Source of the DNA: Rhizophagus irregularis
Lineage: Eukaryota > Glomeromycota > Glomeromycetes > Glomerales > Glomeraceae
Assembly: GCF_026210795.1 (NCBI RefSeq)
Contig: NC_089433.1
Location: 868,001 to 932,000 of the forward strand
DNA: 64,000 nt
Reading direction: 5' to 3'
Shown: positions 21,499-45,969 of the stretch, piece by piece
How the letters are laid out: every line of letters begins with the position of its first letter
How positions within the stretch are numbered: position 1 is the stretch's first letter
Translations under genes and position numbers: made by a program
Notes under the pieces: generated by a model
Database searches by the model: none
What the model was told of the DNA's origin: nothing
The model's input: the letters and a program-made list of their open reading frames with translations, nothing else

Positions 21499-23805
21499 AT
21501 GACAAATTATTATTGGATTATAGCTCAACATTCTGGAAAAGTTCTTGAAGTTGAAAATGGTTCTTTTTGTAGTTGTGCTAACATTATACAACATACTAAG
21601 AAATCTGAGCTTGACCCCTTCGTAAAGTGTTGCATATTCTTTTAATAAAAATAGTTTGTTATTATTAATAATAATTTGATTATTATTTAATTAATCATTT
21701 TTTTTTTATCTATATTTAGGTTGATATGCAACTCTGGTATTTTGATGGTGGATTTATTGTAAACAAAAGATCTGGCTTCGTGATTGATGTCGCTGAAGGT
21801 ATGTAACACTATGTATGATTCATTATTATAAACCGAAATCTTCTAATTTCTAACTCAAAAACTTTTTTTCTTTACTAATCAAGAGATAATCGAAAATTGT
21901 AAGTAATTATGTTTTAAAATATTATTGTGTGTTTTTTTTCTTTAATTCCATAATTAACGTATTTCAATAATAATTAAGGTACGAAAATTATTCAATATCC
22001 AAGGAAACCTGAACCATCTCAAAATCAAGAATGGGAATACAACCATGAGGACAACACTATCGGTTTGAAATCTAATCGAAATTTTGTCCTTGATGTTGAG
22101 GTAAAAATGTTATTGAAATACATTACTAGAAATAAATAATTAAGAATTCAATATTTAATCCCTTTTCTTGTTTTTGTTACAGGAATCAAAAACAGATAAT
22201 CATGCCTTCATCATCCTATATGAAAAGCATGGTGGAGAGAATCAACAATTCATTTTGCAAAAATGGAATGATTGTTCAGTTATCGAAAATGCAGTACCGA
22301 AAATTATTGACAATTATAGATTTTTGCCTAAATTATCACAAAATTTCCTTGAAATTTTGAATGATGACGAATATTATGATATTAATATTGAAGTTGGTAA
22401 CGACCCACATGTAAAAACATTTCATGCTCATATGATTATTTTAAATTACCGTTCTCCTTATCTACGAAGTAAGTTGTCAACTAATAAAAAGAATAATGAT
22501 GGAACTTTGGCGCATATTGAACTACCTAATATTTTACCCGAAATTTTTGAAGTGATTTTAAGGTAAGTATTAATTACTATGTATTATTTTTTTTTTTATT
22601 TATCAATATATTTTAATTTCAATCGTTATCTTAGATACATTTATGGTGGAAAACTTTCTCTGAAAGAATGTGATTCTACGGATGTAATTAAGTTATTAGT
22701 TGCCGCTAAAGAACTAGATCTTCAGGAATTAATTATCTATATACAATCTTTTTTGATTGAATATAAAGCAAACTGGATGGAACAAAATTTTGAATTAATC
22801 TATCGAACGAGCTTTGAAAATAATTCTTTCTTGGACCTTCAAAAATATTGTAATAATTTAATATCTAATGAACCGGATAAGATATTCAGGTCACCAAATT
22901 TCACTTCAATTCCGGAAAAGCTTTTGATTTCAGTTATTCAAGATGATAATCTTCAAATGAGTGAAATTCAAGTTTGGGAGCATGTACTTAAATGGGGAGT
23001 CGCTCAAAATCGAGAATTGCCATCTGATGTCGCAAACTATTCAAAAGATGATTTCAACACTTTGAAGAGTACTTTACAACAATGCATCCAGTTTATTAGA
23101 TTTTACAATTTATCATCTGTAGAATTTGCGGAAAAGGTATTTCCTTACAAAAAAATTTTACCGAAAGAATTATGTAAAGATTTATTATTAAGTCTTTTGA
23201 ATCCTAATAACAAGAAAGGTGATTCAAAACCTCGTATACCTAGAAACATTGATATAAAAGATATTGATTCTAATATTATTACATCTCAACATGCTGAAAA
23301 AATCTCAAAATGGGTCGATAGATTAGATGTTAATGATGAGCAAGATTCTCCATACGAATTCAAATTATTATTTCGTGGATCTCGTGATGGATTCTATCCT
23401 AATAAGTTTCATGAAATTTGTGATCTACAATCTCACACTGTGACAATTGCTAAAGTGAAAGACAGTAACGAAATTCTTGGAGGATATAATCCTCTTGAAT
23501 GGAAATCTGTTGATAGATATAGTAATACTTATGATAGTTTTATATTTTCTTTTAATAATAAAAATAGAAACGAGAATTATATTTTAAGTCGTGTAAAAGA
23601 TAATCAATATGCTATAGATAATAAATCTTATTATGGTCCATCATTTGGTAACGGAGATCTTATTATATGGGGATTAGATATTAAAGCATTTGGTAATTAT
23701 TGTAATGTTTGTAAAAATTCTTATGAAAGTTCGATTAGGGAAACTGAAGAGAGATTTTATGTTGAAGAATATGAAGTATTTCGATTGATGAAAATTTACT
23801 CATGA
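21499..23805 (+). CDS. ricin B-like lectin + BTB + BACK + TLDc protein
   Basis: Five exons with GT..AG borders and matching phases: 21499-21621, 21720-21798, 21979-22100, 22183-22562, 22635-23805 (about 624 aa). Residues 1-150 are beta-trefoil-like (IIAQHSGKVLEV, GFVIDV, NQEWEY, NFVLDV, NQQFIL: repeated hydrophobic strands with QxW-type motifs). Residues about 155-255 are a BTB/POZ domain (YYDINIEVG, FHAHMIILNYRSPYLR). Residues about 260-370 are BACK (ANWMEQNFELIYRTSFENNSF, IPEKLLISVIQ, VWEHVLKWGVAQN). Residues about 440-624 are TLDc (FKLLFRGSRDGF, FHEICD, ILGGYNPLEW, DSFIFSF). BTB-BACK proteins usually act as Cullin-3 adaptors; TLDc is linked to oxidation resistance and V-ATPase regulation. 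A lectin-like front end suggests a carbohydrate- or ligand-dependent version (inference). A possible 15-nt cassette exon lies in intron 2. Confidence 0.9.
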
Positions 23806-24056
23806 ATTTTTTTCTTTATAAAAAAAAACAAATAAAAAAATAATAACAAAAATAAATTATTTACAAATGCTTAAAATGCTTAGCTTATTTACTTATCACA
23901 TGAACATTTCACATGATTGATATCAAATCAAATGTTGTCTCACGCACTAAAATTTAACGTTGCACAGACATTATTTTATTAAAAACCCGTTTCACAAATT
24001 ATGCAAATCATTGGGGAATTCTTTCTCATTTCTTCTTTATCGAATTAATTTATATA
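23806..24056. promoter_or_regulatory. intergenic spacer between the two BTB-TLDc genes
   Basis: 251 bp between the stop of the first gene and the ATG of the second, containing both the 3' end of one and the promoter of the other. No specific motif is claimed. Confidence 0.35.
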
Positions 24057-25665
24057 ATGGATGATGATAAACTTTTTTTATCTAAATTATCCCAAAATTT
24101 ACTTGAAATTTTAAATGATGAAGAATATTATGATATAACTATTGAAGTTGGTAATGACCCTCAAGTAAAAATATTTCGTGCGCATATGATTATTTTATAT
24201 TATCGTTCTTCATATTTACAAAGAATTTTATCGACTAATAAAAGAAAAAATGATGAAACTTTGACACATATTAAATTACCAAATATTTCACCTAAAGTTT
24301 TTCAAATAATTTTAAGGTAATAAAATTCTAAATTTAACAGGACTTTAAACAAAAAATTTAATATAATTTAATATAATTTAATATTCCTAATCCTAATTTT
24401 ATAATTTTTTTTTTATTATTATTTTTAGGTATATTTATAGTGGAAGAATTTCTTTGAAAGAAAATAATATTTTAGATATAATTAATTTACTAGTTTCTGC
24501 TAGTGAACTTGGTATTCAGGAATTAATCCTTTACATACAATCTTTTTTGATTGAAAATAAATCAAACTGGATGGAACAAAATTTCGATTTAATCTATCGA
24601 ACAAGCTTTGAAAATGATTCTTTCTTGGATCTTCAAAAATATTGCACTGAATTAATTTCTAAACAACCAGAAAAAATATTTAATTCAACAAATTTCACTT
24701 CAATTTCAGAAAAACTTTTAATTTCAATTATTCAAAATGATAATCTTCAAATGAACGAAATTCAAGTTTGGGAAAATGTTCTTATATGGGGACGTGCTCA
24801 AAATCCAGAACTTCCATCTGATATCACAAACTATTCAAAAGATGATTTTAATGTTTTAAGGAATACCTTGCAACAATGTATTCCATTTATTAAATTTTAC
24901 AATTTAACTACTAAAGAATTTGTGGATAAAGTATTACCTTATAAAAAAATTTTACCAAAGGATTTATATAAAGATTTATTAAAAGTCCTTTTAAATTATT
25001 TAGATCCTAATATCAAACTAAATGATAGAACAAAACCCAACGTAACTAAAGAAATTATTAATACTGAATCTATTGATTCAAAAATTATTACACATCAACA
25101 TGTTGAAGCAATCCCAAAACCCAACGTAACTAAAGAAATTATTAATACTGAAACTATTGATTCAAAAATTGTTACACATCAACATGTTGAAACAATCTCA
25201 AAATGGATCGACAGATTAGAAATTACTGATGAGTTAACTTCATCTTATGAATTCAAATTGTTATTTCGTGGATCTCGTGATGGATTTTGTCCTAAAAAAT
25301 TCCACGAAATTTGTGATAATCAATCTCGCACTGTTACGCTGGTTAAAGTAAAGGGCAACAACGAGATCCTTGGAGGATATAACCCGACTGAATGGATGTC
25401 TGATTATAGTCGGAATTATAATGAGGATTGTTTTATATTCTCTTTTAATAATAATATAATTAAAGATTGTATTATAAGTCGCGTAATGGCTAATAATGGA
25501 GCTACATGGAATTGTTTTTGTTATGGTCCATTATTTGGTTCTAATGATCTTATTATATGGGGATCCAGAGGTGAATGTCGTTGTTTTAAATCTGACTATG
25601 AAAAACCGATTAGAAAAGAGAGAAGATTTTCTATAGAAGAATTTGAAGTATTTAAAGTCGTGTAG
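24057..25665 (+). CDS. BTB + BACK + TLDc protein
   Basis: Two exons, 24057-24316 and 24429-25665, joined as R|YIYSGRISL (about 498 aa). Residues 1-90 are BTB (YYDITIEVG, FRAHMIILYYRSSYLQ). Residues about 90-215 are BACK (NWMEQNFDLIYRTSFENDSF, ISEKLLISIIQ, QVWENVLIWGRAQNPELPSD). Residues about 325-498 are TLDc (FKLLFRGSRDGF, FHEICD, ILGGYNPTEW, DCFIFSF, LIIWG). It is a clear tandem paralogue of the gene at 21499-23805 but lacks the lectin-like front end. The BACK-TLDc linker carries a perfect-length 28-residue direct duplication (PNVTKEIINTESIDSK... repeated with few changes; DNA period 84 bp from about 25032). The probable role is a Cullin-3 adaptor-like or oxidative-stress protein, by family only. 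Confidence 0.9.
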
Positions 25666-31247: not shown

Positions 31248-34200
31248 ATGGCTCAAATCAAAGGTAAATATAACATACTAAGCAGACTGAAATATTAAAA
31301 TTTTTATTTAATAATAAATAAATTTATTTATTAATAATTTAAATATTATCTATTACCTTACGTAATATACATATGATATGATTTAAATGAATTACATTCT
31401 TGTTTAAAAATTATATTAAACAATTAGCTCGTAAGTTAATAAGTTATTTTATAGTTTAATAATATTGGAATTGCTTATTTTATTATATTCTATATAACTA
31501 AATAATTTATTTAACGATTAATAATATTATATATATAGTTAGTAAGTTATCAGTTATTTAAATCTTTAGTTCTTTACTCTATTTTGCATAATATTCAAAT
31601 AACTAAATTCTTTGTTTAAATAACTATTCAATAATCTATTATGATACAGATGGTAAGTTACAATTCTTAAAAGTTATATTTACTTGTTTAATATTTTATA
31701 TAACTAATTATATTCTTTATTTAGATTGTAAGTAATATATTTTATTTACAGTATATAATATTATATTATTTATATGATTATATCTAACTAATTATAATAA
31801 TTAATAATACTACAGGGTGTAAGTTATATGTCATCTACATTATTTCTACTATTTGTATAGTTTAAACTAACTAAATCTATTTACAAACAAATTATTTGGT
31901 TATTTCTTTTAGTTCGTAAGCTGAGTTATTATTTAATTCTATTGTTATGTATGTATATAATATTTACATATAAACTAACTAAATTTTTATTTAAAAATTA
32001 TTTAATGATATAGGGGGTAAGTTATTATTTAATTCTATTATGCTATCAATATTTCTATTGAGTATATAATTTAAATTTTAAACTAATTAAAATCTTTATT
32101 TTAATAATATAGCTTGTAAGTTATTTATTTACTTCGACTATTATTTATTTATATAATAATAATATATAATTTAAACTAAAAATTCTCTATTTAAAAAATT
32201 ATTTAATAATATAGCTTGTAAGTTATTTATTTAATTCTATTATTGCTTGCATATTTATATATTATATATAATTTAAACTAACTAAATTTCTTATTTAAAC
32301 TTAATAATATAGGGAGTAAGTTATTTATTTAGTTCTATTTTATTATATATTTATATGCATTTTAAATTTTTTCAAAAAATTATTTTGTAATTTCTTTTAG
32401 TTGGTAAGTCATAAGTTATTTATTTAATTTTATTATTACATCTTTATAATATTTATACATAATTCACATAATTTAACCTAACTAAATTCTTTATTTGGTA
32501 ATTTATTTTAGAACGTAAGTTATTATTTATTTAATTCTATTAGTATATATTTATATACTGTATTATTTATAATGTTTACGCATAATTTATAATTAAATTT
32601 TTTAATTAAAAAATTATATGATAATTTATTTTAGAACGTAAGTTATAGTTATTTATTTAATTTTATTTTTAAATATTTATAATATTTACATATAATTTAA
32701 ATTATGTAAATTCTTTATTTAAAAAATTAATTAATAACATAGGGGGTAAGTTATTTATTTAATTTTATTATTATATATTTGTATAATGTTTGCATACAGT
32801 TTAAGTTAACTAAATTCTTTATTTAAAAAATTATTTGGTAATTTCTTTTAGAACGTAAGTTATAAGTGATTTATTTAATTTATTATTATATATTTAGGAC
32901 ATTACAACTTATTTGTTAGTTTAATGTACTGATTCTTCTCTATTTTTTAAAAATCTAAAATATAATGAACATATAATAACATTTGTTTAAATACTTTCTT
33001 TAAATTATGATTATTTGAAATTTTCTGAAATTTTCTATATTCTCAAAATTTCTTAGATTTATTTAATCTATTTAATGAAAATTCCTTCTCCCACTTTATA
33101 GAAAATTCTGATGTTAAACAAACAATTAAATTGAAATGAACTTATATAATGTTTAAATGTAATTTAAATTAACTAAACTTTATTTAAATAATTTCATTTA
33201 GATCGTAAGTTATAAGTTATTATTCAATTGTATTATTACACATTTGCAGTACATTATATTTACATATAATTCAAACAAACTAAATTCCTTATTAAAAAAA
33301 ATTATTTAATAATATAGGAAGTAAGTTATTCATTTAATTCTACTATTATTATATACTTATGTAATATATTTATATATGTAATTTAAATTAACTAAATTCT
33401 TTATTTAAAAAAATTATTTAATATTATACTAGGGAGTAAGTTATTTATTTAATTTTATTATTATTACATAATTATATAATATTTACATATAATTTAATGA
33501 ATTAAATTCTTCATTCAAAAAAATTATTTAATAATAGAGAGTAAGTAATTTTATTATTACATATTTATAATATTTACATATAATTTAAACTAACTAAATT
33601 CTTTATTTAAAAATTATTTTGTAATATCTTTTAGTTGGTAAGTTATAAGTTTTTTGTTTAATTTTTTTTATTGTATTTGTATATAATGCTTATGTATAAT
33701 TTAATTCTTTATTCACAAATTATTTAATAATATAGCTCGTAAGTTATTTATTTAATTCTATGATTTATTATATTTTTATAATTTTTATATAATATTTGCA
33801 TATAATTTAAATTAATTAAGTTCTTTATTTAAAAATTATTTGGTAATTTTTTTTAGAACGTAAGTTATAACTTATTTATTAATTCTATTATTATAAATTT
33901 GTATAATGTAATCTAAATTAACTATTTAAAAATTATTTAATAATAGTTGGTAAGTTTTAGGTTATTTATTTAATTCTACGATACATATATCTATTTAAAC
34001 TAATTAAATTCATAATTTAAAATTTTTTTAATAATATAGAAAGTAAGTTACTATTTAATTTTATTATTATATATTTATACAATATTTTACATATAATTTA
34101 AACTAAATTCTTTATTTAAAATTTATTTATTAATTAATATAGGAGGTAAGTTATTTATTTAATTATATATAGGGATGGCAACGGTCAGTTATAGTCGGTC

Positions 34201-35438
34201 ATGGTCAGTTATAATCGATTATAGCAATTTAAACGGTCAGTTATGGTCGGTTAAAAATTGGTTAAACGGTCAGTTAAATGGTCGGTTATACCATTTTACT
34301 TAAATAATTGGTTAAATGGTCAGTTAAATGGTTAAAAATGGTCGGTCAGATGTTAAAACGGTTGGTTATGATCATAACTGTTGCCATCCCTAATTATATA
34401 TTATATAAAATTTATATATAATTTAAACTAATTAAATTCTATATGAAATTATTTAATAATATAGCAAGTAAGTTATTTATCTAATTCTCAATAGTTAATA
34501 TATTTACGTATATTTACATATAATCTAAACTAACTAAATTATTCAAAAATTATAGCTCGTAAGTTATTTATTTTCTATCATTATATATTTATATAATATT
34601 TGCATATAATTTAAACTAACTAAATTCTTTAATAAATTGTTAATATTATAGGAAGTAAGTTATTATTATTACATATTTATATAATATACATAATATTTAT
34701 GTATAATTTAAACTAATTAAATTCTTTAATCTTTATATAAAAATTATTCAATAATATAGCTTGTAAGTTAATTATTTAATTTTACTATTACATAATTATA
34801 TAATATTTATATATAATTTAAACTAATTAAATTTTTTATTTAAAAAAAAACTTAATAATAGATGGTAAGTTATTTATTCAATTCTAATATTATGTATTTA
34901 TATAATGATTGCATATAATTTATATTAATTTAATTCTTTATTTAATAAATTATTTAATAATATAGAAAGTAAGAATTTTAATATATATTTAGTATATAAT
35001 ATTTTTATATTTAAAAGTTAAACTAACTAAATATTTTATTTAAAAATTATTTAATCAAATAGATTGTAAGTTAGTAGTTATTTAATTTTATTACATATAA
35101 TTATATAATTTGTATATAATTAAACTAACTAAATTCTTAAAAAATTTAGATTGTAAATTATTATTTAATTTTGTTATCATAATACTTACATAAAATTTAA
35201 ACTAATTAAATCCTTTATTTAAAAAAATTATTTAATAATATAGGGGGTAAGTTATTTACTTAATTTTGTTATTGTATGTTTATATAATTTAAAATAACAA
35301 CTTTTTATTTTAAAACTATTTAATAATATAGGAGGTAGGTTATTTATTATATATTTATATAATATTTATATATGATTCATTTAATTAATTGAATTCTTTA
35401 TTAACAAAATTATTAATAATGTAGAGAGTGAGTTTTAA
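31248..35438 (+). CDS. candidate gene assembled from 36 single-codon (3-nt) exons
   Basis: Exon 1 (31248-31263) is ATGGCTCAAATCAAAG followed by GTAAAT. Then 36 triplets, each between YAG and GTAAG or a close variant: CTC 31428, TTA 31539, ATG 31650, ATT 31725, GGT 31816, TTC 31913, GGG 32014, CTT 32113, CTT 32215, GGA 32313, TTG 32401, AAC 32512, AAC 32635, GGG 32743, AAC 32852, ATC 33202, GAA 33318, GGA 33433, AGA 33538, TTG 33635, CTC 33736, AAC 33857, TTG 33947, AAA 34040, GAG 34143, CAA 34465, CTC 34556, GAA 34652, CTT 34760, ATG 34862, AAA 34966, ATT 35063, ATT 35150, GGG 35244, GAG 35332, AGA 35425. Exon 1 ends in phase 1, so codons straddle each intron: MAQIK, then ALNDWFRASW, IEQREHRRKI, AQLERATRTY, ENYWGE, then SEF and TAA (35436-35438) if the last donor is unused. 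The reading is stop-free and helix-like; one other phase has stops at once. Function unknown; no family recognised. Confidence 0.5.
31264..35424 (+). repeat. tandem array of about 36 AT-rich intron-like units (72-120 bp)
   Basis: Each unit reads GTAAGTTATTTATTTAATTC, an AT-rich middle, (T)TTAAACTAACTAAATTC (branch-site-like) and TTTATTTAAAAATTATTTAA, ending TATAG or TTTAG. Spacing between triplets is 72-120 nt except 164 nt (first), 347 nt (32855-33201, probably an insertion) and 319 nt (34146-34464, containing a hAT MITE). Units are diverged but alignable. The 5' splice site, branch-like motif and 3' AG are the best-kept parts. The array breaks off at a 499-bp element (35472-35970). Confidence 0.85.
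34170..34392. mobile_element. hAT-type MITE inside one intron unit
   Basis: 223 bp with inverted ends TAGGGATGGCAACGGTCAG / ACTGTTGCCATCCCTA and a perfect 8-bp duplication ATTATATA (34162-34169, 34393-34400). The inside is made of ATGGTCRGTTA-type direct repeats. Removing it restores a unit of ordinary length between triplets 25 and 26. Confidence 0.9.
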
Positions 35439-35471
35439 TTTTATTGTAGCATATTATTTAATGTTTATATA

Positions 35472-35970
35472 TGTTGTGCCTCAGATCGATTCATGCCTCA
35501 GATTGAAGCTCACGCACCTCACATTGAGATTGTCACCTGACGCACCTCATTTGAATCATTCAATAAAGTCTGTTATAAGTAAACTTTTTTTCTCATTAAT
35601 TAAACCACTTTTTGTAACATAAACAAACTTGTGCGCCATAATGAGTTACATGTTTCCTGAAATCTTTATGTAAATCTGATTCATATTGAAGTTTATACTT
35701 GTATTTTATCTGAAAAATCATTAAATTTTAAGTCATTTTTCAAATGAAAAGATTTAATGAGCATGATTCTAATTAATCTGAAATTTTAGGATTGTATACT
35801 TAAAATAATGATAAATAAGTTTACTTAGTACTTAAAAATACATTAAAATTGGAAATTTTGATGTTTAATTATAGCTCATTTTTATTAGCAATTGAGGTGC
35901 GTCAGATGACAATCTCAAACTGAGGTGCGTGAGCTTCAATCTGAGGCAAGAATCGATCTGAGGCACAACA
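35472..35970. mobile_element. long-TIR element, 499 bp
   Basis: Long inverted ends (about 80 bp): TGTTGTGCCTCAGATCGATT at the left and its complement ending GGCACAACA at the right, with inner TGAGGTGCGT motifs. Flanked by TATA on both sides, so the target duplication is TA or TATA. No transposase. It interrupts the 3' side of the micro-exon array. Confidence 0.8.
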
Positions 35971-36539: not shown

Positions 36540-37637
36540 TAGTGCCTCGACCCGTATCCGGATCAATCCGGATTGATCCGGATTTTTTTTTTTCGGATAT
36601 CCGGATTTTCACGGGTTTCATCCGGATTATAAACCGGATGAAAAATATCCGGTTTGACCCGGAATCCGGATGAAATTTTTATTATTTTTTTTTTTAATTA
36701 ATAATGATTTTGCTGATCCATAAAGATCTATATCTAAATTATATTATGGCTAATTATTTTTGCGCCTAATACCAATTTTTTTATTAAAATTTATTAAATT
36801 TATATTTGTTATATTAAACTTTTTAATACAGTAAGTTTAAGAAGATTTTTCAATTATAATTTATTTATTGAAGTTTGTATCAGATTTGTTTATTTAAATT
36901 TATACATTAACAAATAACAAATAATTTTAGATTTCACATTCAAACGTTCAAAAGAAAAAAAACTTTATATTATTTTTGTTACAACAAAATAATAATTATT
37001 GTTTTAAATGAAAAATTGTTCAATATTATAAATTTATATAATTATAACAACTTTTTTTAAAAATTAAAACTAGTGTTATATAATTTGATTCAAATGATTC
37101 TTTAATTTTTGAAAGAAGAAACAAATCCTTAAAAAATTGCCTTACTAACCCAACACATCTATTTATAGTAATCTTTAGCTGTATATAAAAATATCTTGTT
37201 TAAAATTTCATAATTAGTTAATTTACAAAGAAATGTTAAACAATATTCTGAGACAATGCTGAAATAATATGAAATTGTTTTAAAGAAAAGTATTTAATGA
37301 AATTGGAATTATGTAAATTTCGTGGTCTTGGATAATTTTGGCCAAATTTGTAATTCTGGCCGAAATTAACATCACGTGACACCGGGAAATAGTTTAGCCA
37401 CCGGGCAAAAAATTTTTTATCGGCTGGCATGAAAATTTAATGTTACACAATTTGTAATTCTGGCCGGCGTTATGAATTCTGGCCAGAATTATTGCCGATC
37501 ATTTGTAAATCCAATCCGGTTTCCGGTTTCTATCCGGATTATCTGATCCGGATTCAAAATCCGGGTCAATCCGGATATAATCCGGATTTTTTTTTTGTGT
37601 AATCCGGATGACGGTTTTCATCCGGGTCGAAGCACTA
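36540..37637. mobile_element. non-autonomous hAT element, 1.1 kb, copy B (inverted relative to copy A)
   Basis: 1,098 bp from TAGTGCCTCGACCCG to CGGGTCGAAGCACTA with a perfect 8-bp duplication CTCTGAGC (36532-36539, 37638-37645). The reverse complement matches 9776-10871 nearly base for base over the stretches I compared, so both moved recently. The 64-codon minus frame at 37236-37430 is part of the element and not a gene. Confidence 0.9.
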
Positions 37638-37928
37638 CTCTGAGCTGATCTTTGTCAGACCCGGACACCAGAACCGTGGAATGCTTAAAATAGGTTTATT
37701 CAACAAAATATTAATGCTGTACGACTATCATTGGCTTAATATAGGTTTATTATACACTCATTTACACAACAAAATATCGGAGAAAAGGTTTTTCCTAGAA
37801 TGTTTAATTGTTCATGAAAGTGACGAAAAATTTTATTGATTATTCATTGAGAATATACAAAACGAATATTTCATTTGGTTTTTAGATTATAAGAAAATAA
37901 AATCTTTTAAAAAAATTATTCTTAAAAA

Positions 37929-44087: not shown

Positions 44088-45969
44088 ATGCAAAAAAATA
44101 TTAAAAATAATTTTAAAGATAATAATGATCATAAGATTCTTGAAAGAGAATCTCTAGAACATAATTTGTTGAATAAAATTCATTATAAAAAAGAATCTTC
44201 AGAAAACATTAAGCTTGATAATTATTACGAAAAAGATATAGCTAATAAAGAATTCGGGGTTTGTTTTAATTGTAATAAACCACAGACTGAAGAAAATTGG
44301 TGTTTAAATTGTAATTCTAAATTTTTTCAAAAAGAATTCAATAATTGGAGAAGTGAAAATATGCATATAGATAAATTTATACAAGAAGCTCAATTAAATG
44401 CAAGAAATAATAACGAAGTTATAGAATGGATTAATTATGATCATTTTATAAATATACAATATATTACTCGAGGAGGATTTAGTATTATTTATGGGGCTGA
44501 TTGGTTAGATGGAAGTATTGATTGTTGGAATTATGAAAAGGAAAATTGGAATAGAATTACTCAAAAAAATGGAATTCGTGTAATACTTAAGAGTTTAAAC
44601 GATTCTTCGAATATTCACGAAGATTTCCTAAATGAGCGAGGTAATTATTTTTTTAATTTTTAATTTTTTAAATGGCATTTTTTTTTTTATTAATATAAAT
44701 ATATATATACCATTTTTAGTTGAAAAATCATTTAAAATTTTTATATTCAGCTATAAATAATTATTCAAATTTTGTGAAAATTTATGGAATAACTAAAGAT
44801 CCAAATACATCAAATTATATAATTGTTTTACAAGAAATGCCAATGGGTAATTTAAGATCTATACTTATGATAAAAAAATGGAATCAAAATGATAAATATT
44901 ATAATATATACGAGATAGCAAGTTCACTTTCCGCTTTGCATAAATGTGATCTAGTTCACGGTGATTTACATAGTGGAAATATACTTTTTAAAGATATATT
45001 TACTGCTTATATAAGCGATTTTGGATTAAGTAAACCTGCGGATCAATCTATTGATTATAATGTGATTTCTGGAGTACTTCCATATATTGCTCCAGAAGTT
45101 TTACGTGGAAAACCGTATACAAAAGCTGCTGATATTTATAGTCTTGGTGTTATTATGTGGGAATTTACATCTGGTGTTCCTGCTTTTAATAATAGACAGG
45201 ATGATTTTAATCTTTCCTTAGATATTTGTAGAGGATTAAGACCAGAAATTATAGAAGGAACAGAACCTGATTATGAAGAATTAATGAAAAGATGTTGGAA
45301 TACTGATCCCAATAAAAGACCAACTGCAGATGAATTAGCAGAAATATTTGACGTGTTATCTACTAAATTTATAATGCTAATGAAGGATGAAGAAAGAAAG
45401 TCAGTACCAGCAGTACCAGCAATACCAGGTAAATAAGATTTTTTTTTCTTATATTAATTAAATTTAATCATTAATCGATTATTACTATTATAGAGAATAA
45501 ATCATATCATCCATTAACTTGCTATACAAGTAGAAAATTTGATTATTCTGTAAAGTTGAATGAAATTTTAAATCAAGAAGAATTAAGTTTTAAATTTACA
45601 ATAAATGAGAAAGATGATTATAAAGAAACAATATTAAGTGAAAGTTTAGGTAAGTATTACTTGTTTTTTTTTATTAATTTTAGGAGTTAGTATTAGTACT
45701 AGGTATAATGTATTATTTAATTAACTAAATAACTATGGTGATAAATAATCATTTGCCGCTATATAGTAAATGAATAGCAGAACCCTTTTATTAATACATT
45801 TTTATATTAATAACTTTTATAGAAAATTGTAAGATTTCTAGTACCATTTTAGGTAATTTACATTTTTTATTTAATGTTTATAATTTTTCATATTTTAAAT
45901 TATTATTTTTTTTTTAATTAATTATTTTTTTTTGTAGATATTAATCAAGAAAAAAGAGAAAAAAGTTAA
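44088..45969 (+). CDS. TKL-like protein kinase with N-terminal zinc ribbon
   Basis: Five exons: 44088-44640, 44720-45428, 45494-45649, 45823-45852, 45938-45969. N-terminus: CFNCNKPQTEENWCLNCN (two CxxC pairs) and FNNWRSENMHIDKFI, the usual leader of the expanded glomeromycotan kinase family. Kinase motifs: Gly loop ITRGGFSIIYGADW, VILK lysine, HGDLHSGNIL (HRD is HGD here), ISDFGLSK, PYIAPEVLRGKPYTKAADIY, CWNTDPNKRP. Exons 3-5 give a short charged tail ending REKS. Exons 2 to 5 join in phase. The exon 1-2 junction is off by one (exon 1 ends CGA G, while exon 2 must start on TTG AAA AAT CAT to read KNHLKFLYS), so a small lesion or an unusual splice site lies at 44634-44640. Likely a Ser/Thr signalling kinase by family. 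Confidence 0.7.

Follow-up and report, generated by a model that had tools for sequence, protein, structure and literature searches.

The stretch analysed here, referred to as the window, comprises 64,000 nucleotides (nt) of DNA from Rhizophagus irregularis (contig NC_089433.1, positions 868,001 to 932,000). In the genome that we searched (146,748,485 bases in 32 contigs), it corresponds to contig 5, 868001-932000. On its forward strand lies a short candidate ATG exon followed by an array of 36 predicted exons, each only three nt long, and the meaning of this array is the subject of this text. Below, phase 1 denotes the reading of the joined triplets that is set by the single nucleotide left over from exon 1, phase 0 the reading in which each triplet is itself a codon, and phase 2 the third reading. 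The features of the locus are the following.

31248..31263, + strand: exon 1, ATGGCTCAAATCAAAG, encoding MAQIK with 1 nt left over; the donor after it is gtaaat, and relatives have comparable ATG exons.
31264..31427, + strand: first intron, resembling the intron after exon 2 of relatives (DNA search of the same genome and alignment of starts).
31428..35427, + strand: array of 36 three-nt exons; a splice-site chain starting behind CTC gave the other 35, none of them longer or shorter than 3 nt.
Array triplets by position of their first base, + strand:
31428 CTC, 31539 TTA, 31650 ATG, 31725 ATT, 31816 GGT, 31913 TTC;
32014 GGG, 32113 CTT, 32215 CTT, 32313 GGA, 32401 TTG, 32512 AAC;
32635 AAC, 32743 GGG, 32852 AAC, 33202 ATC, 33318 GAA, 33433 GGA;
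33538 AGA, 33635 TTG, 33736 CTC, 33857 AAC, 33947 TTG, 34040 AAA;
34143 GAG, 34465 CAA, 34556 CTC, 34652 GAA, 34760 CTT, 34862 ATG;
34966 AAA, 35063 ATT, 35150 ATT, 35244 GGG, 35332 GAG, 35425 AGA.
31428..31915, + strand: header, CTC TTA ATG ATT GGT TTC, read as A-L-N-D-W-F in phase 1 (header comparison of 31 rows from 30 distinct loci).
34170..34392, + strand: inverted-repeat insertion with ends TAGGGATGGCAAC and GTTGCCATCCCTA, read from the sequence, within one array intron that thereby reaches 319 nt.
35428..35472, + strand: last donor, gtgagt, and the sequence after it; no tail motif or kinase exon of the family follows downstream in the window.

Each of the 36 triplets has an acceptor, YAG (TAG or CAG), on its 5′ side and a donor on its 3′ side, with a gap between the two that is 3 nt without exception. 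The donor reads GTAAG in 33 cases, with gtaaa, gtagg and gtgag occurring once each. The strict pattern YAG-N3-GTAAG is found at 34 sites on the plus strand of the window, 33 of them inside the array, and at none on the minus strand; acceptor-donor spacings from 0 to 15 other than 3 give between 0 and 4 sites each per strand. Inside the array span, none of these other spacings occurs on the plus strand, and the minus strand has a single site with a spacing of 12. Across the 35 array introns, conservation is 94-100% over the donor (+1 to +6) and over the acceptor (-3 to -1), and 46-91% in 51 further columns that were compared. G and C make up 44 of the 108 bases of the joined triplets (17, 8 and 19 of 36 by position), against 13.5% of the intron sequence, or 11.7% once splice sites are left out. 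A previous reading made from the letters of this stretch alone (hereafter the sequence-only reading) had taken the triplets for a real coding sequence on account of their G/C contrast with the surrounding units, the open phase set by exon 1 and the codon bias. The array stands as described, and the counts given for it (44/108 overall, 8/36 versus 19/36 by position) were reproduced exactly. Phases 0 and 1 are open, and phase 2 contains five stops, in line with the statement that the third phase is closed. The joined peptide, MAQIKALNDWFRASWIEQREHRRKIAQLERATRTYENYWGE, has 41 residues and not the 44 first reported.

We postulate, with a probability of about 0.87, that the window contains the 5′ portion of a gene belonging to a large kinase family of Rhizophagus, in which a variable segment, read in phase 1 and encoded with one codon per exon, lies between a leader and a kinase. 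One subtype of the array unit, with up to two mismatches, had 2,097 matches in the genome, versus 2 for a reversed-pattern control. About 110 arrays may exist, a rough extrapolation from the 16 clusters among the first 100 exact matches listed (approximately the first 20.8 Mb), and the figure of about 5,000 units genome-wide is likewise extrapolated. In the kinase search, the 91 best of 6,266 first-look candidates were scored, and there were at least 130 matches.

The relatives share one layout: a short ATG exon, the header triplets, an array of 22 to 81 exons of 3 nt, then a 1-nt exon, and a protein kinase. A pattern scan of 36 loci located an ATG first exon of 13, 16, 19 or 22 nt in 28 of them, and all 28 lengths equal 1 modulo 3, so that each leaves 1 nt, as proposed for the window. 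Leaders include MGQCIGK, MDQCIGK and MAQSNNE, beside MAQIK in the window. Among the other eight loci, L067 has a first exon that was recognised by eye (donor GTAT), L035 is considered further below, and in the rest the pattern scan gave no match. Several loci continue with an exon 2 (27 nt in the models from L066, L067 and L072) and then an exon 3 encoding an acidic repeat. The array start is nearly constant, CTC-TTR/TCA-ATG-ATT-GGT, mostly A-L-x-[DN]-W in phase 1, and in 29 of 31 rows, corresponding to 28 of the 30 distinct loci (L060 and L072 being the same locus), the residue after the tryptophan is F, W or Y. Conservation of the tryptophan is partly due to selection, because the rows were chosen for ATT followed by GG. 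The change between TTA and TCA at the second header position is silent in phase 1 and not in phase 0, and the reverse applies to TTA and TTG. The header codons are conserved as mostly A-L-x-[DN]-W-aromatic in the phase of exon 1, which supports the phase taken by the sequence-only reading.

At the other end, 7 of 19 long arrays finish with CTT-TTG, and elsewhere variants such as CTT-TCG or ATT-TTG occur. The array tail consists of a 1-nt exon, an A set between tag and gtaagt, and then a kinase exon that begins A TTT GG. Of the 12 arrays for which the glycine loop was located, 11 have such a 1-nt exon a short way ahead of the kinase (A in nine, C in one, T in one); in the twelfth, C1:2290553, the motif is present farther upstream, with inserted sequence between. 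In the relatives, this single nucleotide places phase 1 in frame with the kinase, which again agrees with the phase claimed from exon 1. Five spliced models of relatives are open from ATG into the kinase. Three of them stop at TAA (453, 456 and 463 amino acids), and the other two are open to the end of the DNA examined (345 and 392 amino acids). The relatives carry the kinase (PF07714/PF00069) in frame, with a Pfam match to PF07714 at 1.1e-41 in the one spliced model scanned, and the kinase signature motifs are intact in four of the five.

The splice-site chain was applied to 17 arrays. With a flat prior on exon lengths from 1 to 60 nt, 562 of 583 exons were exactly 3 nt long, and with a prior favouring 3 nt, 697 of 714. 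Phase 1 had no stop at any of 677 junctions, compared with 28.8 ± 4.0 when triplets were shuffled (minimum 14 in 5000 shuffles) and 32 when their order was reversed; phase 2 had 116. Over 19 long arrays, the count was 0 of 745; shuffling within arrays gave 32.6 ± 4.2 (minimum 20 in 3000), and reversing the order gave 34. T is the last base of 173 of 677 triplets, yet in none of 127 cases was a triplet with this last base followed by AG, AA or GA. We are aware of no splicing mechanism that ties the base ahead of one donor to the bases past the next acceptor, some 100 nt away; translation of the joined triplets would create such a tie. The joined triplets yield 18 amino acids in phase 1 (3.92 bits), whereas in phase 0 they yield chiefly I, G, L, R, M and F (3.02 bits). 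The first two letters of the triplets are mostly AT, GG, TT, AG or CT (628 of 704 in the 17 arrays), and since the preceding base is nearly free, almost every amino acid is represented by a single codon. One array, C24:2020895-2029800 (L035/L064), contains a TGA triplet, which is harmless in phase 1. Collectively, these data strongly support a coding role for the triplets, read in the phase that exon 1 dictates.

The sequence-only reading had argued that its agreement of phase, open reading and codon bias was hard to obtain by chance. For the window alone, the departure from chance is modest: P = 0.043 for a stop-free phase 1 over 35 junctions under triplet shuffling, and P = 0.005 for a position-2 G/C count of 8 or fewer under permutation within triplets. 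Over the family, the absence of stops lies far beyond chance. The contrast in G/C at third codon positions was rejected as a decisive argument, as it is seen in the window (8 versus 19 of 36) and is no property of the family (.345,.358 and.423 for the three triplet positions in 17 arrays); it is also confounded, because the outer triplet positions adjoin splice sites. The peptide was supposed to persist in homologous arrays. On this point the outcome is mixed: its middle differs between genes, and what is kept is the header and the frame. A search with the 41-residue peptide gave no candidate with three shared words and no Pfam match, and it was uninformative because the middle segment is not conserved between genes.

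The introns have median lengths of 90-101 nt in each of the 17 arrays. CTAAC occurs in 365 of 697 introns, its median distance from the acceptor being 38 nt, and only once in a reversed control. The typical intron is thus about 95 nt long, has a strong GTAAGT donor and a TAG acceptor and often carries this branch-point-like motif about 38 nt ahead of the latter, features that would fit with recognition by intron definition. Most likely, the introns are removed from 5′ to 3′, each splice setting the next triplet beside the next donor. All triplets would then be joined in order, yielding the variable segment between leader and kinase, and the 1-nt exon would close the array and restore the frame into the kinase. 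At 3 nt per unit, units can be gained or lost without a change of frame, which leaves the length and sequence of the segment free to change and would make skipping tolerable.

Comparison of units provided insights into how introns and codons evolve. Among pairs of units from different genes whose flanking introns are both at least 95% identical, the triplet was the same in 11% of 427; among pairs within a gene at this threshold, it was the same in 36% of 162, and in 25 of 25 when the introns were fully identical (the pairs overlap in their units, so they are not independent, and a prefilter on the nearby flanks was applied). One gene has GGA GGA GGA, and another TTC CTC TTC, within runs of four near-identical introns. 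Within the array-kinase family, to which the comparison applies, near-identical introns therefore separate unrelated exon sequences. Recent block duplications inside genes copy the triplets as well, as in L062, with a period of 16 units and identical triplets, and also in L066, L063 and L070. Two sister genes, at C11:4337 kb and C11:4396 kb, have identical triplets in 19 of 27 paired units, and their segment ends are identical and the middle variable; in this single gene pair, units were matched by intron similarity, 1 of 28 pairs was dropped because the L065 exon had been parsed as 1 nt, and a few pairings appear to be out of register. The simplest account is that introns are homogenised by concerted evolution, or are mobile, and that codons would stay in place and drift or diversify. 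Targeted hypermutation of triplets was considered and is not needed, given that triplets diverge no faster than introns where the sister genes are compared position by position.

An origin compatible with our reading is that introner-like introns were repeatedly inserted between the codons of an older exon, in place of a tandem duplication of units made of intron and codon together. The 427 between-gene pairs, sharing their triplet in 11% of cases, and the four-intron runs that carry different triplets are what such insertion would leave behind. Gene conversion of introns accounts equally well for this pattern, however, while the block duplications that copy triplets, the 25 of 25 identical-intron pairs with a shared triplet, and a constant 3-nt spacing that random insertion would not be expected to produce all make this origin unlikely.

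The whole array could also be one long intron with recursive splice points, from which the triplets are usually removed, so that the protein lacks them. Every unit does consist of an acceptor with a donor 3 nt further on, like a recursive-splicing exon, the frame would be kept whatever number of triplets is skipped, and the database model P0003 skips the array. Yet avoidance of stops across successive triplets requires that they be joined in order and translated, and the header residues are conserved in phase 1; the 0 of 745 stops in particular argues that the triplets are retained. We regard such removal as quite improbable.

Coding in phase 0, with each triplet a codon, agrees with the NCBI model P0002 (C11:4166278 onward), whose residues 1-167 match a phase-0 model and were reproduced from L073 by joining 29 three-nt exons in array order, with three L073 triplets omitted that were chosen to match P0002. 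Since P0002 contains 3-nt exons, another pipeline saw such exons too. Phase 0 also has only 1 stop in 775 triplets of the 19 arrays, and the TTA/TTG change in the header is synonymous in it. But TGN and TAN triplets are rare (4 and 1 of 704), so few phase-0 stops are expected in any frame, and one of the arrays does include a TGA triplet. Furthermore, phase 0 leaves the ordered avoidance of T before AG, AA or GA without a reason, the first exons finish in phase 1, and P0002 requires the donors GTATTT and GTAATA and drops the header. Phase 0 is therefore very improbable. Lastly, a non-coding satellite with a core that merely resembles splice sites would explain an AT-rich tandem sequence with many genomic copies, but it is scarcely credible for units that are linked to ATG leaders and a kinase in one continuous frame, that vary in length and hardly in their 3-nt spacing, and that avoid stops in phase 1.

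Several points weigh against our reading of a kinase family with phase-1 one-codon exons. The splice-site weights were derived from the strict 3-nt sites of the same arrays that were parsed. Seventeen of the 714 parsed exons have other lengths (0, 1, 4, 6, 7, 9, 29 and 41 nt), and the parser skips some units, for example an ATG in C2:18019. Among 17 partial loci (loci overlapping long arrays being excluded), 2 of 162 junctions form phase-1 stops, against 5.2 ± 1.8 in shuffles with a minimum of 0; pooled with the 19 arrays, this makes 2 of 907 versus 37.9 ± 4.8. L035, part of array C24:2020895, has no ATG at the expected start of exon 1, and the C2:18019 kinase has YNF for CDF, with Asn replacing the catalytic Asp, and DYL for DLG. 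At matching positions of the sister genes, per-base identity is 86% for triplets and 86% for introns. Existing annotation also disagrees: P0002 arrives in phase 0 by way of two exons, of 23 and 5 nt, whose donors are poor, and omits the header, P0003 passes over the array, and P0001 and P0006 hold other sequence there. Splicing in the cell as drawn, and its order, are predicted from DNA alone. In the window itself, the last donors of the array weaken, and neither the 1-nt-exon tail motif nor a kinase exon of the array-kinase family is present downstream.

Both stops in partial loci are probably missed units, one at L055, where the parse skipped ATC in ATT ATC AGA, and one at L052, which has a 207-nt gap. 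Some of the exons of other lengths are misparses, and some may be real, such as the 6-nt TTGTTG in L073 and the 4-nt exons in L063. L063 has three 4-nt exons amid its 3-nt array, a frameshift, misparse or assembly error. The C2:18019 kinase may be inactive, judging from its substituted motifs. As to annotation, a protein that NCBI records for R. irregularis DAOM 197198 shows 99% identity over the main block when mapped to the searched genome, and at least some published models of the array-kinase family are probably wrong near their N termini. The record P0004, which resembles a MULE transposase, ends in the L067 leader (exons 1-3), as if two genes had been fused in annotation.

The only kinase found for the window is a separate one at about 44322-45588, and the array itself has no kinase domain attached. 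The window copy is either truncated or has a different 3′ end, and it may be a relic. Without a kinase end, its own translation is doubtful, and its peptide should not be treated as an established protein. Directly past the last triplet, at 35473-35969, lies an inverted-repeat element with ends GTTGTGCCTCAGATCG and CGATCTGAGGCACAAC, which is perhaps tied to the loss of the kinase end. Farther on, at about 36540-37640, two ATCCGGAT-type repeat blocks flank an AT-rich stretch and resemble a long inverted repeat. The gene at 44088-45588 encodes a protein kinase and is devoid of a triplet array; it is 45-52% identical over the main block to the array kinases, and its exon layout could show the ancestral state. 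At 22579-25665, two adjacent and similar open reading frames, the first with BACK and TLDc domains, are probably a tandem duplicate.

Based on these findings, we tentatively propose a protein-diversifying system, an idea we hold at somewhat less than even odds: some 100 kinase genes in which uniform mobile or converting introns, free codons and frame-neutral units would generate a hypervariable, receptor-like segment, possibly with combinatorial isoforms. By its position and variability, the segment might have a role in recognition by the kinase or in its regulation. Should splicing proceed as drawn, every codon in a row of tens of codons is followed by an intron, and the spliceosome is severely tested in pairing its sites with almost no exon between them. 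The data further suggest that introns can evolve as a shared pool, independently of the codons they flank, and that proteins may have a simple route to codon-by-codon change free of frameshifts. A row of one-codon exons is apparently an extreme gene architecture, one that existing gene models treat inconsistently, and the models affected belong to a kinase family of a major plant symbiont.

TAL effector repeats and PRDM9 zinc fingers are arrays of near-identical units that differ at few coding positions. In the Rhizophagus arrays, by contrast, the constant part is an intron, predicted to be spliced out, and the unit would contribute a single codon. Introners are mobile introns that are near-identical at many sites of one genome; the Rhizophagus introns, as compared within the array-kinase family, differ from them in standing in arrays with 3-nt spacing. 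Generation of introns by DNA transposons is the subject of work cited in a passage of PMC10640383. Among the matches listed in the open-licence literature, judged by title and the start of the abstract, none appeared to describe consecutive one-codon exons, and such exons are not mentioned in the passages concerned of PMC8786786, PMC11333574, PMC10640383 and PMC10234402.

The excerpted text of PMC10526429 describes the micro-exon genes (MEGs) of schistosomes as gene families with many very short exons of 3-81 bp and introns of up to 5 kbp. The Rhizophagus arrays are likewise families with many very short exons, and the parse, a prediction from DNA, gives the MEG architecture of many short exons in multiples of three. 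Unlike MEGs as described there, nearly all exons are 3 nt long and in one phase, the introns are about 95 nt long, many of them near-identical, with medians (90-101 nt in the 17 arrays) far from the long introns of schistosomes, and the genes end in a kinase. Isolated ultra-short exons are reported for Arabidopsis (1 nt, PMC4674806), Fusarium CYP621A (1 nt, PMC12940212) and Drosophila hth (3 bp, PMC7392893). They show that exons as small as 1 to 3 nt can be handled by spliceosomes; they are described as single exons, whereas Rhizophagus has 22 to 81 per array plus a 1-nt exon. In recursive splicing, as outlined in part of PMC6224609, joining of an exon to the preceding one creates a new donor, and a long stretch is removed stepwise. 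In the Rhizophagus arrays, the 3-nt exon is instead apparently kept and translated.

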